64,000 nt of DNA, taken from positions 3,658,001 to 3,722,000 of the forward strand of contig NZ_CP084058.1 of assembly GCF_020215645.1 (NCBI RefSeq), read 5' to 3'. Each line of letters begins with the position of its first letter. Within the stretch, counting starts at the first letter, position 1. A model generated the notes under the pieces. The model was not told the DNA's origin and searched no databases. It saw only the letters and a program-made list of their open reading frames with translations. Positions 19,310 to 64,000 of the stretch are shown here, in pieces. Origin of the DNA: Nonomuraea gerenzanensis (lineage in GTDB: Bacteria > Actinomycetota > Actinomycetes > Streptosporangiales > Streptosporangiaceae). A program made the position numbers and the translations under genes.

Positions 19310-19480
19310 CACGATCGGGCATGCGGCCTGCCGAATCCGTGCAGCCAGGAGGCACGGAGCCGGGGACCCAGCGATCCCAGTTCCCCAGGGATCAGGGGTG
19401 AATCGGCGCGCCATCGCGCCGTAGGGCGACTTCCAGGCCCGAATCCGTCAGCTAACCCGGTAGGCGTTCGTGGAAGACTC
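19310..19480 (+). ncRNA. c-di-AMP riboswitch (ydaO-yuaA type)
   Basis: The leader contains the conserved blocks of the ydaO/yuaA aptamer in order: a GAATCCGTGC...GCACGG stem, AGCCGGGGACCC (19359-19370), GGGGTGAATC (19395-19404), the stretch around AGGCCCGAATCCG (19435-19447), then TCAGCTAACCCGGTAGGCG (19448-19466), ending in GGAAGA just before the ribosome site. In actinomycetes this element precedes NlpC/P60 and Rpf-type wall hydrolases and responds to c-di-AMP. The outer boundaries are approximate. Confidence 0.88.
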
Positions 19481-19491
19481 AAGGAGCAATC

Positions 19492-57798: not shown

Positions 57799-58896
57799 AT
57801 GGCTATCGAGGGGCCGTTCTGGCGGGCGATCGCGGTCTTCCGGGTGGCGTCGCTGGTCTACGCCGCCGTGCTGATGGCCCAGCACCGCGGCTACGAGCAG
57901 CCGCTGCTGGGCTGGCTGGTGATCGGCGTGATGGCGGTGTGGACGGCCGTCGCCACGTTCGCCTACGCGGCCGAGGCGCTGCGCCGGTGGCCGCTGCTGA
58001 GCGTCGACCTGGGCGTGACGCTGGCGTGCCTGCTCACCACCCCGGCCGTGCAGGGCGGCCAGCAGGTGGCGATCGGCGCCATGCCCGTGCCCGCCACCTG
58101 GATCGCCGCGCCCGTGCTCGCCTGGGCCGTGCACTACGGCAGGCGCGCGGGCACGCTGGCGGCGGCCGTGGTGGCGGCCGGCGAGCTGTGGTCGCGGTCG
58201 CGGGTCGAGGAGCCGTCCGTCCTGATCAACGAGACGGTGCTGCTGCTCATGGCCGGCTGGCTGGTCGGCCACATGGTCCGGCTGGCCAAGCGGGCGGAGG
58301 AGCGCATGCAGCGGGCCGCCGAGATGGAGGCCGCGCAGCGTGAGCGGGAGCGGCTGGCCCGCGACATCCACGACTCGGTGCTGCAGGTGCTCGCCCTGGT
58401 GCAGCGGCGTGGCAGGGAGCTCGGCGGCGAGGCGGCCGAGCTGGGCCGCCTGGCGGGTGAGCAGGAGGCCGCGCTGCGCGAGCTCGTCTCGGTCGGGCCG
58501 CCGCCTCTGGGCACGACCGACCTGCGCTCCCTGCTGGCCCGCTTCGGCTCACCCTCCGTGACGGTCTCCAGCCCGGCCACGCCGCTGCTCCTGCCCGCCG
58601 AGGCCGCCGCCTGCCTGTCCGCCGCCGTCGGCGCGGCCCTGGACAACGTCCGCGCGCACTGCGGGCACGAGGCGCGCGCCTGGGTGCTGGCCGAATCGCT
58701 CGACGGCACCGTCACGGTCACGGTCAGGGACGAGGGGCCGGGCATCCCGGAGGGGCGGCTGGAGCAGGCCGCCGCCGACGGGCGCATGGGGGTGGCCAGG
58801 TCGATCCGAGGGCGGATGAGCGAGCTGGGCGGGAAGGTGTCGATCGTGAGCGTCCCCGGGCAGGGCACCGAGGTGGAGATCACCCTGCCCGCCTGA
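57799..58896 (+). CDS. MacS-like sensor histidine kinase
   Basis: 365 aa. Four to five N-terminal membrane helices (about residues 10-165), then HisKA_3 'RERERLARDIHDSVLQVLALVQRRG' (phospho-His in DIHDS) and HATPase_c ('AVGAALDNVRAHCG', 'VRDEGPGIPEG', 'MGVARSIRGRMSELGGKVSI'). This matches the MacS family, whose partner regulator is MacR. GAGAAGG before the ATG. The response regulator gene starts 32 nt after its stop. Confidence 0.92.
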   Translation: MAIEGPFWRAIAVFRVASLVYAAVLMAQHRGYEQPLLGWLVIGVMAVWTAVATFAYAAEALRRWPLLSVDLGVTLACLLTTPAVQGGQQVAIGAMPVPATWIAAPVLAWAVHYGRRAGTLAAAVVAAGELWSRSRVEEPSVLINETVLLLMAGWLVGHMVRLAKRAEERMQRAAEMEAAQRERERLARDIHDSVLQVLALVQRRGRELGGEAAELGRLAGEQEAALRELVSVGPPPLGTTDLRSLLARFGSPSVTVSSPATPLLLPAEAAACLSAAVGAALDNVRAHCGHEARAWVLAESLDGTVTVTVRDEGPGIPEGRLEQAAADGRMGVARSIRGRMSELGGKVSIVSVPGQGTEVEITLPA

Positions 58897-58916
58897 CGAA
58901 CGCCAACAGTGCCGCC

Positions 58917-58928
58917 TACAGTGGCGCC
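58917..58928 (+). promoter_or_regulatory. -10 box of a possible leaderless promoter (response regulator)
   Basis: TACAGT (58917-58922) lies 6 nt before the ATG at 58929, with no ribosome-binding site. The regulator may therefore also be transcribed apart from the kinase. Confidence 0.4.
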
Positions 58929-59570
58929 ATGGTGCGGGTCATGGTGGTGGACGACCATCCCATGTGGCGCGACGGCGTCGCCAGGGATCTGACGGAGGCC
59001 GGTTACGAGGTCGTGGCCGCCGTGGGGGAGGGCCGGCAGGCCGTCAGGGTGGCCGGCGCGGTGCTGCCCGAGGTCGTGGTGCTCGACCTGAGGCTGCCCG
59101 ACCTGTCAGGGCCCGAGGTGACGGCCCACCTGGCGCGGATGGACCCGGCGCCCAGGGTGCTGGTGCTGTCGGCGAGCGCCGAGCAGGACGACGTGCTGGA
59201 GGCGGTCAAGGCCGGCGCCTGCGGCTATCTGGTGAAATCGGCCAGCCGCGAGGAGTTCCTCGACGCCGTGCGCCGCACCGCCGACGGCGACGCCGTGTTC
59301 ACCCCGGGGCTGGCCGGGCTGGTGCTGGGGGAGTACAGGCGGCTGGCGGTGCAGCTGGAGCCCACCGAAGGGCCCCGGCTGACCGAGCGGGAGACCGAGG
59401 TGCTCAGGCTGGTGGCCAAGGGGCTGTCGTACAAGCAGATCGCCGAACGGCTCGTGCTGTCGCACCGCACCGTGCAGAACCACGTCCAGAACACCCTCGG
59501 CAAGCTGCACCTGCACAACCGGGTCGAGCTGGTGCGATATGCGATCGAGCGGGGGCTCGACGCGGACTAA
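58929..59570 (+). CDS. MacR-like LuxR-family response regulator
   Basis: 213 aa. Receiver 'MVVDDHPMWRDGVARDL', phospho-Asp in VVVLDLRLPDLSG, 'VLVLSAS' and 'YLVKSAS'. LuxR HTH 'LTERETEVLRLVAKGLSYKQIAERLVLSHRTVQNHVQNTLGKLHLHNRVELVRYAIERG'. It is paired with the upstream MacS-like kinase. Confidence 0.95.
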   Translation: MVRVMVVDDHPMWRDGVARDLTEAGYEVVAAVGEGRQAVRVAGAVLPEVVVLDLRLPDLSGPEVTAHLARMDPAPRVLVLSASAEQDDVLEAVKAGACGYLVKSASREEFLDAVRRTADGDAVFTPGLAGLVLGEYRRLAVQLEPTEGPRLTERETEVLRLVAKGLSYKQIAERLVLSHRTVQNHVQNTLGKLHLHNRVELVRYAIERGLDAD

Positions 59571-59640
59571 ACTCGGGTGGTCGCGGCGTTGGCATCTTCG
59601 ATCGCCGCGCTCATCCCCTTCTTTCCCCGGAGGTTCCACC

Positions 59641-60837
59641 ATGACGATGTCCGCCCTGGGCGAGCCGTGCGTTCTGCTCAAGCTGGGCGAGATCGTCCTC
59701 AAGGGCAAGAACCGCGAGCTGTTCGAACGCCGCCTGATCGCGAACATCCGCGACGCCCTGCAGACGGTCGGCGTCCAGGTCGACGTGCGCAAGCGGCACG
59801 GCGTGATCGCGATCTTCCTGCCCGAGGGCGCCACCGCCGAGCAGGCGGACGCCGTGGCGCAGCGCGTCGCCGACGTGCCGGGGCTGGTCTGGATCCACCG
59901 CGCCTGGCGGGTCGCCAAGGACCCTGACACCGTGCTCAAGGCCGGTCTGGAGCTGGTCGGCGAGAGCGAGGAGGCCAAGCGGGGCGCCCGCTTCGCGGTC
60001 CGCTCCCGCCGCCGCGACAAGCGCTTCCCGCTGCGCTCCAACGAGCTGGACCGGCTCGTGGGCGGCGCCATCAACGACGAGTACGGCCTGCCGGTCGACC
60101 TGAAGAACCCCGAGCTGACGGTCTTCATCGAGGTCGACAGGGACGAGGTGTTCGTCTTCACCGGCGGCATCCCCGGCCAGGGCGGCCTGCCCGTCGGCAG
60201 CAGCGGCCGGGCCCTGGTGCTCATGTCGGGCGGCATCGACTCGCCCGTGGCGGCCTACCGGATGATGCGGCGCGGCCTGCACGTCGACTTCCTGCACTTC
60301 TCCGGCATCCCGTTCACCACGTCGGAGTCGATCTACAAGGCGTACGCGCTGGTCAGGAAGCTCGACCGGTTCCAGGGCAGGTCACGCCTGTGGGTGGTGC
60401 CGTTCGGCAAGGCCCAGCAGTCGATCCGCACCTCCGGCCAGGACCGGCTGGCGGTGATCGCGCAGCGGCGGCTGATGCTCAAGACGGCCGAGGAGGTCGC
60501 CCACCGCATCCGCGCCTCCGCCCTGATCACCGGCGACGCGCTCGGGCAGGTCTCCTCGCAGACTCTGGCCAACATCACCGCCCAGGACAACGCGGTGGAG
60601 CTGCCGATTCTGCGACCGCTGGTGGGCTGGGACAAGACCGAGATCATGGCCGAGGCCCGGCGCATCGGCACGCTGGAGATCTCGGAGCTGCCCGACGAGG
60701 ACTGCTGCTCGCTGCTGGCTCCCAAGCGGGCCGAGACGCGGGCCAAGATCGAAGACCTCAAGCAGATCGAGAAGCGGCTCGACGCGGAGGAGCTGTGCGT
60801 GCAGCTCGCCGACTCGATCCAGGAGTACACCCTGTGA
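59641..60837 (+). CDS. thiI: tRNA 4-thiouridine synthetase / thiazole biosynthesis protein ThiI
   Basis: 398 aa. N-terminal ferredoxin-like/THUMP region ('LLKLGEIVLKGKNRELFERRLIANIRDAL'), then a PP-loop pyrophosphatase 'LMSGGIDSPVAAYRMMRRG' that adenylates U8 of tRNA. 'SELPDEDCCSLLAPKRAETRA' supplies the conserved Cys. No rhodanese domain is attached, so it is the short form. Start ATG 59641 with GGAGG upstream. Confidence 0.94.
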   Translation: MTMSALGEPCVLLKLGEIVLKGKNRELFERRLIANIRDALQTVGVQVDVRKRHGVIAIFLPEGATAEQADAVAQRVADVPGLVWIHRAWRVAKDPDTVLKAGLELVGESEEAKRGARFAVRSRRRDKRFPLRSNELDRLVGGAINDEYGLPVDLKNPELTVFIEVDRDEVFVFTGGIPGQGGLPVGSSGRALVLMSGGIDSPVAAYRMMRRGLHVDFLHFSGIPFTTSESIYKAYALVRKLDRFQGRSRLWVVPFGKAQQSIRTSGQDRLAVIAQRRLMLKTAEEVAHRIRASALITGDALGQVSSQTLANITAQDNAVELPILRPLVGWDKTEIMAEARRIGTLEISELPDEDCCSLLAPKRAETRAKIEDLKQIEKRLDAEELCVQLADSIQEYTL

Positions 60838-61125
60838 TCAGGCGTCGACCTTGAACGGGTCGTGCTGGGTCAGGAGCTTGTCCAGCCGGGCCTGGTCGAC
60901 GCGGTTGCTGACCTCCGAGAGCTCCTGCCGGTCCCTGACGACCTTGCACAGGGTGACCGTGGAGGTGACGACGTACAGGAGGCCGAGCCCGAGGAACGCC
61001 CTGATCCAGCCCTCGACGGGCAGGTAGACCAGGGCGATCACCACGGAGGTCAGCGAGACGGCGAACGACAGGATCGCCTGGACGTAGAACGCGGTGGTCT
61101 GCGTGGGTTGAATGGGCTTCGTCAT
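60838..61125 (-). CDS. YiaA/B two-helix domain inner membrane protein
   Basis: 95 aa. Two membrane helices ('AFYVQAILSFAVSLTSVVIALVYLPV' and 'WIRAFLGLGLLYVVTSTVTLCKVVRDRQE') form the YiaA/YiaB domain. The function is unknown. ATG at 61125; the stop codon directly abuts the convergent thiI stop. Confidence 0.88.
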   Translation of the reverse strand: MTKPIQPTQTTAFYVQAILSFAVSLTSVVIALVYLPVEGWIRAFLGLGLLYVVTSTVTLCKVVRDRQELSEVSNRVDQARLDKLLTQHDPFKVDA

Positions 61126-61235
61126 GGAGCCATGGTGCGGCCCGGACGAGGGCGGGCACATGAGGATTCGTACTCAGGTTACCCATGAGTACGACCGGCG
61201 GTCCGCTTGTGGCGGCCGGTCGCACCCCGAGCGGA

Positions 61236-62258
61236 TCAGGCCGTCGCGGCCGTCTTGCCGAGCAGCGCCGGGAAGTCGGTCATGATCTGCGCCAGCTCGC
61301 CCAGGTCGGCGTCCACCAGCGCCTGCGGCCCGTCACAGAGCGCCTGCTCGGGCTGCGGGTGCACGTCGATGATGACCCCGTCGGCGCCGACCGCGACGGC
61401 CGCGCGGGTCAGCGGCAGCACCAGGTCGCGCCGGCCGCCCGAGTGCGACGGGTCGACGATCACCGGCAGGTGCGACAGCCGCTGCGCCACCGGCACGGCC
61501 GAGACGTCCAGGGTGTTGCGGGTGGCCGTCTCGTAGGTGCGCACGCCCCGCTCGCACAGCACGATGTCGAGGTTGCCGCGCTGGGCGATGTACTCGGCCG
61601 CCATCAGCCACTCCTCGATCGTGGCCGTCATGCCGCGCTTGAGCATCACCGGCCTGCCGGCCGCACCGACCTCCTGCAGCAGCGCGAAGTTCTGCATGTT
61701 GCGGGTGCCGACCTGCAGCATGTCCGCGTACGAGGCCACCATCTGCACGTCCCGCGCGTCCACGACCTCCGTCACGATCGGCAGGCCCGTCTCCTCGCGC
61801 ACGTCGGCCAGGATGCGCAGGCCCTTCTCGCCCAGCCCCTGGAAGGCGTACGGGGACGTGCGCGGCTTGAAGGCCCCGCCGCGCAGCAGCACCGCCCCGG
61901 CCGCCTGCGCCATCCTGGCCGCCGCGAGCGTCTGCTCGGGCGTCTCCACCGCGCACGGCCCCGCGATCAGCGTCACGGTGTCGGGGCCGATCGGCACGCC
62001 GCCCACGTGCACGGTGGAACGTTCCGGATGATTCTCCCTGCTGACCAGCTTGTACGGCGTGGACACGCGCATCACGTCGCGCACCCCCGCCATGCCCCGC
62101 AGGCTCGCCGCGTCGAGCTGCGTCACGTCGCCGACCAGGCCGACGATCGTGCGCGACACCCCCTTGCTGACGAACGCCTCCACCCCGGCCGCCTCGACGA
62201 CGGACACGATCGACTCGATGTCGGCGGCGGTGGCCTCGGGCCCCATCACGATCACCAT
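61236..62258 (-). CDS. aroF: 3-deoxy-7-phosphoheptulonate (DAHP) synthase with N-terminal FL regulatory domain
   Basis: 340 aa. Condenses PEP and erythrose-4-phosphate at the entry to the shikimate pathway. The N-terminal ferredoxin-like domain (MVIVMGPEATAADIESIVS...VGDV) is the tyrosine/phenylalanine-binding regulatory part of type I-beta enzymes such as Thermotoga's. The catalytic barrel has 'LIAGPCAVETPEQ', 'GGAFKPRTSPYAFQGLG', 'QVGTRNMQNFALL', 'LKRGMTATIEEW' and 'PVIVDPSHSGGRRD' (metal Cys, His, Glu, Asp). ATG 62258 with AAGGAG 7 nt upstream. An aromatic-leader attenuator precedes it. Confidence 0.95.
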   Translation of the reverse strand: MVIVMGPEATAADIESIVSVVEAAGVEAFVSKGVSRTIVGLVGDVTQLDAASLRGMAGVRDVMRVSTPYKLVSRENHPERSTVHVGGVPIGPDTVTLIAGPCAVETPEQTLAAARMAQAAGAVLLRGGAFKPRTSPYAFQGLGEKGLRILADVREETGLPIVTEVVDARDVQMVASYADMLQVGTRNMQNFALLQEVGAAGRPVMLKRGMTATIEEWLMAAEYIAQRGNLDIVLCERGVRTYETATRNTLDVSAVPVAQRLSHLPVIVDPSHSGGRRDLVLPLTRAAVAVGADGVIIDVHPQPEQALCDGPQALVDADLGELAQIMTDFPALLGKTAATA

Positions 62259-62298
62259 CTGCTTGCTCCTTGGAAGGGAAAACTCACCGGGAAACACA

Positions 62299-62332
62299 GA
62301 AGGCCCCGGGTCCGATCGGACCCGGGGCCTTC
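62299..62332 (-). terminator. Attenuator terminator hairpin ahead of the DAHP synthase gene
   Basis: A fully symmetrical 34-nt sequence (62299-62332) with 17-nt arms. On the minus strand it follows the leader peptide stop by 13 nt and ends 40 nt before the gene. Its 5' arm can instead pair with the leader segment 62363-62382 (see finding). Confidence 0.75.
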
Positions 62333-62345
62333 GTTCGCCTGTCTG

Positions 62346-62414
62346 CTAGCGCAGCATCAGATGGCGAACGGACTCGGGTCCGCCGCCATAGGAAAACAGG
62401 AACGCTGCGTGCAT
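62346..62414 (-). CDS. Leader peptide with Phe/Tyr codons (attenuator), 22 residues
   Basis: A 22-codon ORF (minus strand, ATG at 62414, TAG at 62348-62346) encoding MHAAFLFSYGGG and then PESVRHLMLR. Codons 5, 7 and 9 are TTC, TTT and TAT (Phe, Phe, Tyr); TTT and TAT are rare in this GC-rich genome. A TAGGCT -10 box sits 8 nt upstream, so it is probably leaderless. Too short for routine gene calling. It is expected to couple ribosome stalling on Phe/Tyr-tRNA to read-through into the DAHP synthase gene. Confidence 0.75.
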   Translation of the reverse strand: MHAAFLFSYGGGPESVRHLMLR

Positions 62415-62508
62415 AGTGCGAAAGCCTACCGCACCGCACCCGCTCGCGAACCACTCATGACCCGATGGCAGGATGGCCCAAGACGCGAGACCGGTGAGGG
62501 GAGTGATC

Positions 62509-63105
62509 GTGGAGGAGTCGCGCCTGCCTCCAGGCCAGTACGTCCCGCGCGGCAGGCCCGTGATCCACTACGGCAGGGTGCCCGCGTTCAAGCCGGACAG
62601 CTGGGACTTCCGGGTGTTCGGGGCCACGGCGTCGGGCGAGGAGCACCGCTTCGACTGGGGCGAGTTCGAGCAGTTGCCACGCGCCACGCGCATCGCCGAC
62701 TTCCACTGCGTCACCAAGTTCTCCCTCATGGCCAACGAGTGGCGCGGCGTCACCCCCGCCACGATCATGGCCGCCGCCCCGCCCGACCCCGGCGTGCGCC
62801 ACGTGATGATCTGGGCCGAGTACGGCTACAGCGCCAACCTGCGGATGTCCGACTTCGCCGCGCCCGGCACGCTGTTCGCGACGGAGCTGGACGAGAAGCC
62901 GCTCAGCCCCGAGCGCGGTTTCCCGCTGCGCATCGTGGTGCCGCACCTGTACGCGTGGAAGAGCGTGAAGTGGGTGCGCGGCATCGAGTACCTCCTGGAG
63001 GACCGCAGGGGCTTCTGGGAGGAGCGCGGCTACCACAACGTCGCCGACCCGTGGCGCGAGCAGCGCTACTCCTACCAGGAAGAACCCGGAGAGGGCCCGC
63101 CCTGA
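62509..63105 (+). CDS. Sulfite oxidase-like (molybdopterin) oxidoreductase, MsrP-type
   Basis: 198 aa. 'VIHYGRVPAFKPDSWDFRVFG', then 'ATRIADFHCVTKFSLMANEWRGV' with the molybdenum-ligand Cys, and 'LRIVVPHLYAWKSVKWVRGIEYL'. This is the stand-alone SUOX fold of YedY/MsrP, related to periplasmic methionine sulfoxide reduction, here without signal peptide. GTG at 62509 has GAGGGGA 6 nt upstream; an ATG at 62473 is an alternative without a good ribosome site. Confidence 0.88.
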   Translation: MEESRLPPGQYVPRGRPVIHYGRVPAFKPDSWDFRVFGATASGEEHRFDWGEFEQLPRATRIADFHCVTKFSLMANEWRGVTPATIMAAAPPDPGVRHVMIWAEYGYSANLRMSDFAAPGTLFATELDEKPLSPERGFPLRIVVPHLYAWKSVKWVRGIEYLLEDRRGFWEERGYHNVADPWREQRYSYQEEPGEGPP

Positions 63106-63159
63106 CACAACTCCGTGTTTTCCCCCGGGCACGGTCCGTTATTGGTTACGGTTTCCAGC

Positions 63160-64000
63160 ATGCTGACCACCGTGTGCGTGGCGCTGTGCTCTCTGACCTT
63201 CCTCCTGGGCTACAGGCTCGCTCGCGCGCCGTGGCGCGGCCCGGCGGCACCGGAGGGACACAGGGCGGACGACGCCACGTACACCACGCTGCACATCGCC
63301 GCGATGGCCGCCCCCGCCCTGCGCGCGGGGCTCGATCGCGACTCCGCCCGTAAGGCCGTGCGGCACCTGCGCACCCTGCTCGGCACCTCGGCCGTCGCGA
63401 TCACCTCGACCGACGCCGCGCTGGCCTGGGACGGGCCGTGCACCGACGACGTGCTCACCTACGCCCGCGCCACGATGGCCGCCGGGCAGGCCCAGGTGTT
63501 CCCCGGGCGGCCCGGGGGGCCTGAGCTGGGGGCCGTGGCGGTGCCGCTGACGGTGGACGGCACCGTGGTGGGCGTGCTGGCGGCCTTCGAGCAGGAGGTG
63601 AGCGCCGCGCTGGTGCGTACCGTCTGCGAGGTCGGCCGCTGGGTCTCCGGCCAGCTGGAGCTGGCCGAGCTCGACGCCTCCAGGCGGCGCGCGCTGGAGG
63701 CCGAGATGCGCGCCCTGCGCGCGCAGATCTCGCCGCACTTCGTCTACAACGCGCTGACGACGATCGCCTCGTTCGTCCGCACCAACCCCAAGCGCGCCCG
63801 CGAGCTGCTGCTCGACTTCGCCGACTTCTCCCGGTACGCGCTGCGCAGGGCCCACGACTTCACCACCCTGGCCGACGAGCTGACCTGCGTGGACCGTTAC
63901 CTGCTGCTGGAGCGGGCCCGGTTCGGCGACAAGCTGCGCTTCAGCATGCAGGTGGCCCCCGAGGTGCTGCCCGTGCCGGTGCCGTTCCTGTGCCTGCAGC
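63160..64000 (+). CDS. LytS/YehU-type sensor histidine kinase, 3'-truncated by window edge
   Basis: At least 280 residues, running off the right end. N-terminal membrane segment (MLTTVCVALCSLTFLLGYRLA), then a GAF-like domain (about residues 45-165) and the His_kinase helix 'ALEAEMRALRAQISPHFVYNALTTIASFVRTNPKRA' (phospho-His in SPHFVYN), then 'VDRYLLLERARFGDKLRF' leading into the ATP domain. A LytTR-type response regulator gene probably follows outside the window. Confidence 0.9.
   Translation, partial: MLTTVCVALCSLTFLLGYRLARAPWRGPAAPEGHRADDATYTTLHIAAMAAPALRAGLDRDSARKAVRHLRTLLGTSAVAITSTDAALAWDGPCTDDVLTYARATMAAGQAQVFPGRPGGPELGAVAVPLTVDGTVVGVLAAFEQEVSAALVRTVCEVGRWVSGQLELAELDASRRRALEAEMRALRAQISPHFVYNALTTIASFVRTNPKRARELLLDFADFSRYALRRAHDFTTLADELTCVDRYLLLERARFGDKLRFSMQVAPEVLPVPVPFLCLQ

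Follow-up and report, generated by a model that had tools for sequence, protein, structure and literature searches.

The DAHP Synthase Locus

The stretch of DNA analyzed here (the window; 64,000 nucleotides) belongs to a 12 Mb genome; its nearest named matches are Nonomuraea. Its minus strand holds, between 62428 and 62258, a 22-codon ORF with aromatic codons and a hairpin, followed by the gene for a type I DAHP synthase of 340 amino acids with an N-terminal ferredoxin-like (FL) domain (61236–62258). The assignment of this enzyme in the earlier note is borne out by domain matches to PF18152 and PF00793, and the protein further matches PRK08673/TIGR01361 and scores 375 bits against 1rzm, the DAHP synthase of Thermotoga maritima. 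By homology to the T. maritima enzyme (1rzm/3pg9), this FL-domain enzyme would itself be subject to Tyr/Phe feedback. Its ATG at 62258 lies behind a Shine–Dalgarno-like AAGGAG (62271–62266). On the opposite strand, a divergent gene for an oxidoreductase with a molybdopterin-binding domain (PF00174) occupies 62473–63105; as it starts 58 nt from the leader ATG, both promoters would share this gap.

The leader ORF, MHAAFLFSYGGGPESVRHLMLR followed by a stop codon, runs from 62414 to 62346 on the minus strand and has TTC, TTT and TAT as codons 5, 7 and 9 (F5, F7 and Y9), as first described. Two features can be added to that description, namely a −10-like element TAGGCT (62428–62423) situated 8 nt ahead of the leader ATG, which would be the promoter of a leaderless mRNA, and a predicted protector-type hairpin (segments 1:2, 62389–62361; ATGGCG/CGCCAT and CGGAC/GTCCG) that emerges within the ORF from the centroid fold and the sequence. 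Segment 2, the 5′ side of the putative antiterminator (62382–62363), comprises CGGACCCG (62382–62375) and CGTTCGCC (62370–62363). Segment 3, its 3′ side (62339–62317), comprises GGCGAACG (62339–62332) and CGGGTCCG (62324–62317) and overlaps the 5′ arm of the terminator, and the two complementary pairs formed between segments 2 and 3 are exact. Both segment 3 partners had been thought to cover the terminator arm; this holds for CGGGTCCG, whereas GGCGAACG is spacer and shares a single base with the arm. The predicted intrinsic terminator itself, a GC-rich hairpin, is found at 62332–62299, where the earlier note had placed it, though with a stem of 15 bp closed by a 4-nt GATC loop, the 17 bp originally given being reached only if the self-complementary loop is counted in. 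The U-tract that follows, TGTGTTTCCCGG, is weak, as are those of the relatives described below: the 12 nt after the stem contain 5 T in the window and a median of 4 (range 0–7) in 91 relatives.

A T-box or other curated RNA family was considered and set aside, as no Rfam model matches the locus in a cmscan search of the whole window at gathering thresholds. The sole Rfam match in the window is a c-di-AMP (ydaO/yuaA) riboswitch at 19319–19481 on the plus strand, with 82 bits far above its gathering score.

Recurrence in Relatives

The leader was compared across 110 loci, made up of the best 80 of 575 confirmed named loci, 29 loci from 297 genomes of the same family and the locus of the window. 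This sample consists of close relatives by selection, and its named and unnamed loci overlap in species. Three loci with less than 100 nt of upstream DNA (L044, L047 and L107) were left out, and in the 107 that remain we recorded a leader when a short ORF ending before the gene contained at least three F, W or Y within eight residues. This rule returned 92 matches, one of which (L066) was judged spurious and dropped, so that a comparable leader precedes the DAHP synthase gene in 91 of 107 relatives. These 91 leaders represent 73 distinct ORFs and 65 distinct peptides, with MRTAFLFWYGDGPESVRHLTLR typical of Nonomuraea, VRNVVYFFWFDQPGRLVCQTLR of Actinomadura, MQRNFWRFYGYRPVSRTVACKALR of Nocardiopsis, MRQQFWFWYGYRPGNRTVARQTLR of an actinomycete MAG and MASTYFFGHLPGAPVRAVPM of Nocardioides. 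One further locus, L080, escaped the rule and looks like a genuine Nocardioides leader. Among the genes without a leader, several (L055, L069 and L072) lie, as judged by eye, closely behind another coding frame. Actinoplanes regularis, Paractinoplanes and Plantactinospora (L050, L052 and L058) have the same enzyme and no recognized aromatic leader. A hairpin of 9–25 bp (median 16) follows the ORF in 91 of 91 leaders. Conservation in relatives of the leader ORF, of its aromatic codons and of the potential for alternative stems, the comparison proposed in the earlier note, is thus found at the level of sequence.

GC-rich DNA is full of short ORFs (in the window, 58000–64000 is overlapped by 51 that have 20 amino acids or more), and one such ORF could by chance lie beside an unrelated hairpin. 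To gauge the background, both strands of the 80 named loci, 529,205 bases in all, were scanned for a −10 element, a short aromatic ORF and a strong hairpin; this combination was found at the DAHP synthase gene in 53 of 80 loci and at no other site. With this, and with the recurrence in relatives, we give coincidence practically no credence.

To cover the class, 158 genomes were drawn from it, 65 of which have the gene at E values up to 1e-100. All 51 gene-bearing genomes outside the family of the window were taken, and 49 of these had 450 nt of upstream DNA (L141 and L143 were left out). Counting the rule matches at L124 and L135 as spurious, an aromatic leader with hairpin is present in 19 of these 49 genomes, spread over nine families (f2, f8, f14, f18, f20, f22, f23, f24 and f33), and 13 of the 19 leaders contain Phe, Tyr and Trp together. 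The gene is kept and a leader recognized by the rule is absent in the other 30 genomes, including 13 of 13 in family f17 (L131–L137, L157–L161 and L163), four of four in f9 and three of three in f11. Since the f17 genomes and the L050, L052 and L058 loci keep the enzyme with no recognized leader, control must differ or was lost there. The candidate device is widespread, not universal, in the class.

Within the genome of the window itself, the rule applied detects no aromatic leader with both a −10 element and a strong hairpin at pheA, at pheS, at three tyrA-like genes or at the gene for the class II DAHP synthase; two of the tyrA-like genes have aromatic ORFs without a −10 element. As the class II DAHP synthase (L112, G000:C1:4244678–4245976, minus strand) has no such leader by this rule, only the FL-domain isozyme would be under leader control. 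A separate observation concerns the trpE-like gene (L169, G000:C1, upstream of 4815756, plus strand), which is preceded by MRNHAQLQWWRRS, a short WW ORF with −10-like element and hairpin, and so resembles the trpE genes of other actinobacteria, where Trp leaders of this kind are known.

Putative Promoter and Translation Start

A TAnnnT motif is found 6–9 nt before the leader start in all 91 leaders (80 of 80 distinct upstream regions) and, at the same distance, in 19 of 19 leaders from the class survey. SD-like 4-mers are scarce before the leader starts (5 of 91) and usual before the DAHP synthase starts (82 of 91). The proximity of the −10-like element to the ATG, together with the scarcity of SD-like motifs, suggests that the leader mRNA is leaderless and starts at or near the leader ATG. 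A transcription start downstream of the hairpin would speak against attenuation; the sole element examined that resembles a promoter is situated before the leader ORF.

One may also regard the hairpin as a constitutive 5′ terminator or processing site, or suppose that translation of the main ORF is what is controlled, the leader ORF having no regulatory role in either case. Against this speak the aromatic ORF and its −10 element, which recur before the hairpin in 91 of 107 relatives, and the position of the SD sequence (62271–62266), outside the named helices. The persistence of the terminator in our folding models, given below, counts in its favor, and on balance we consider this explanation very unlikely.

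Folding and Alternative Pairing

The 201-nt region folds 5.3 standard deviations below dinucleotide shuffles, with none of 200 shuffles reaching as low an energy. Compared with shuffled versions of segment 2, the 2:3 pairing has a median z of −2.4, and 60 of 91 leaders lie below −2. When a ribosome footprint is placed on an aromatic codon in the model, the median number of 2:3 pairs formed ahead of the terminator 3′ arm is 24; it is 11 for a ribosome on the stop codon and 23 for RNA free of ribosomes, and in 91 of 91 modelled leaders the stalled state has more of these pairs than the stop-codon state. That a median of 11 pairs should still form in the stop-codon state, prior to completion of the terminator, is a counterpoint. 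In the full-length minimum-energy fold the terminator is retained in 369 of 382 modelled stall states, from which it follows that antitermination must be kinetic.

Alignment of 42 relatives shows 93.9% of cells paired for the antiterminator pairs and 99.2% for the terminator pairs, versus 21–49% and 18–68%, respectively, when the helices are slid. Changes on both sides of a pair occur in these 42 sequences at one antiterminator pair and two terminator pairs. A second group comprises 11 distinct sequences that are of Nocardiopsis type or similar; here an inner helix of 9 bp has 67.7% of cells paired (28–43% when slid) and six double-changed cells, a number reached by 21 of 500 shuffles, and one slid version scored higher covariation. 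The covariation support is modest, and weak in the Nocardiopsis-type group; covariation was dropped as the main proof, being too weak by itself. By eye, segments 2, 3 and 4 vary jointly across families, as in GGACCC/GGGTCC/GGACCC versus CGGCCC/GGGCCG/CGGCCC. When partners are swapped between groups, pairing in the group of the window becomes clearly worse, with 3% and 9% of foreign partners equally good; in groups B to E the picture is unclear, as 13% to 60% of foreign partners are equally good and 2:3 pairing is not lowered in the way seen for the group of the window.

Conservation of the leader peptide bears on another explanation, in which free aromatic amino acids are sensed by the peptide itself, be it an arrest peptide or a small protein, with no codon-by-codon stalling. 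The second half of the peptide is indeed conserved within families (YGDGPESVRHLTLR, FDQPGRLVCQTLR, YGYRP...RTVACKALR). It is this half, however, whose RNA is complementary to the terminator arm, and its conservation in the group of the window extends even to synonymous positions. It differs, moreover, between families, while the aromatic cluster recurs, and the rare synonymous codons at the aromatic positions described below are hard to explain by peptide function. An active peptide appears highly improbable.

Aromatic Residues and Codon Choice

Phe is present in 91, Tyr in 90 and Trp in 74 of the 91 leaders, and all three in 73. In the 52 leaders of YGDG/YGGG type, Tyr is preceded by Trp 44 times, by Ser five times and by Phe three times, the five leaders with Ser being the locus of the window, L003, L004, L083 and L084. 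The reading of the leader as a Phe/Tyr device thus stands for the Nonomuraea strain, and Trp joins Phe and Tyr in the consensus of the relatives.

Both Phe codons are read by one tRNA, and both Tyr codons likewise by one. The 91 leaders use TTT 102 times, TTC 78, TAT 89 and TAC 26, against TTT 0, TTC 513, TAT 4 and TAC 402 in the downstream genes, where T-ending codons make up 4 of 919 Phe/Tyr codons. With each distinct ORF counted once (73 in all), T is the last base of 154 of 242 Phe/Tyr codons, while in other pyrimidine-ending codons of the same ORFs it is so in 33 of 188 cases up to the last aromatic residue and in 97 of 518 after it. The enrichment of TTT and TAT at the leader Phe/Tyr positions places rare codons at the regulatory positions. 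Codon choice and attenuator sensitivity are treated in PMC1183508, where the leu leader with its rare Leu codons serves as the classic example and codon rarity alone is warned of as an oversimplification.

These counts also bear on the possibility that the same device responds to Phe only, the Tyr codons (and Trp codons in relatives) having little effect, as reported for Corynebacterium glutamicum AroR. PMC11802643 states that the C. glutamicum aroF operon answers to Phe and not to Tyr availability in spite of its Phe-Tyr-Phe leader, and the presence of Phe in all 91 leaders is in keeping with such a response. On the other hand, Tyr and Trp are retained in most leaders amid very different surrounding peptides, and the Tyr codons of the leaders prefer TAT (89 to 26) where those of the downstream genes prefer TAC (402 to 4). 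We regard a Phe-only response as unlikely, though considerably less so than the active peptide or the constitutive hairpin.

Proposed Mechanism

The ORF and its codons, the hairpin, the complementarity and the recurrence in relatives are read directly from the sequence and from the comparison. Conserved as they are, the ORF, codons, hairpin and alternative-stem potential support the attenuator interpretation of the earlier note, and on the strength of these data and of the folding models we consider it likely that the element is a ribosome-mediated transcription attenuator, through which a shortage of charged Phe-tRNA or Tyr-tRNA would increase transcription of the DAHP synthase gene. Against it stand the weak U-tract, the modest covariation, the 2:3 pairs that form in the stop-codon state, the terminator retained in most modelled stall states, the partner swaps in groups B to E and the genomes outside the family that keep the gene with no recognized leader. 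RNA polymerase would begin at the leader ATG or close to it, and the leader would be translated. With aromatic amino acids in ample supply, the ribosome would reach the stop codon and cover part of segment 2, upon which the hairpin 62332–62299 would form and transcription terminate. Stalling at codon 5, 7 or 9 would open the protector hairpin, and segment 2 would then pair with segment 3 before the terminator 3′ arm is made, allowing RNA polymerase to continue into the coding region. The same stall window contains a Trp codon in most relatives, which would yield a device that reads all three aromatic end products; in the clade of the window Ser takes the Trp position.

In its widest form, the proposal is that of an ancient three-input attenuator present in at least 10 families of one class, in which the codons for Phe, Trp and Tyr share a single stall window of a leaderless mini-gene, shortage of any single shikimate-pathway end product opens the first enzyme, rare TTT and TAT codons set the sensitivity, and the clade of the window has dropped the Trp input. 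We advance this tentatively, with somewhat less than even confidence. If the Trp reading is true, this would be a natural case of three amino acids from one pathway being read by a single attenuator, its regulatory positions occupied by rare codons, and the clade of the window, with its Trp codon lost, offers a natural comparison. The leader would be a conserved and testable point at which the supply of aromatic amino acids is controlled in actinomycetes such as Nonomuraea, Actinomadura and Nocardiopsis. A number of these organisms make antibiotics from aromatic precursors.

Comparison with Known Systems

The earlier note knew of no description of this exact leader. A close analogue has been described in the Phe-Tyr-Phe leader peptide (AroR) at C. 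glutamicum aroF (PMC4046766, PMC11802643). PMC11802643 presents this aroF leader as experimentally supported, with the operon responding to Phe and not Tyr (citing Neshat et al. 2014), and in PMC7356990 aroR is replaced to relieve aroF control. Common to AroR and the present leader are a short aromatic leader ORF before a DAHP synthase gene, an actinobacterial host and a reading as ribosome-mediated attenuation. AroR has consecutive Phe-Tyr-Phe, whereas the leader of the window reads F-L-F-S-Y and most relatives have F/W/Y clusters. The enzyme behind the leader of the window has an FL domain, unlike that of C. glutamicum, where AroR controls another DAHP synthase subtype. Reading several end products of a branched pathway in one leader is known from the multivalent enterobacterial ilv and thr leaders, which serve the branched-chain or Thr/Ile pathways, not the aromatic one.

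The E. coli pheA and trp attenuators (PMC11802643) share with our candidate the end-product codons in the leader and the competing antiterminator and terminator; they differ in that each reads one amino acid and serves terminal-branch or tRNA synthetase genes, where the leader of the window precedes the first common enzyme. Streptomyces lividans trpL, leuL and ilvL are reported to be leaderless (PMC8079986), with a leader ORF at the 5′ end of the transcript in a GC-rich actinomycete, as predicted here, and the accessible portions of that source give leaders for Leu, Trp, Ala, Ile, Met and Thr and none for Phe or Tyr. For actinobacteria, the accessible portions of PMC1262725 describe leaders of the Trp, Leu, Ilv and Cys types and T-boxes at ileS, and they report that operons for Phe or Tyr lack conserved RNA structures; a DAHP synthase leader is not named in the accessible portions of PMC8079986, PMC5784534, PMC2965389 and PMC4833913. 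At the level of titles, in a literature coverage that is incomplete and mostly excludes subscription journals, no aromatic leader at a DAHP synthase gene, and no three-aromatic leader, was found reported for the families studied. Within the literature examined, seen in part, attenuation of an actinobacterial DAHP synthase gene is described only for Corynebacterium.

The element is, as judged from sequence comparison, a genuine and conserved candidate attenuator of a known mechanistic kind, ribosome-mediated attenuation. What appears new, as far as the literature was searched, is the breadth of its occurrence, the three-aromatic consensus, the likely leaderless start and the rare-codon signature.
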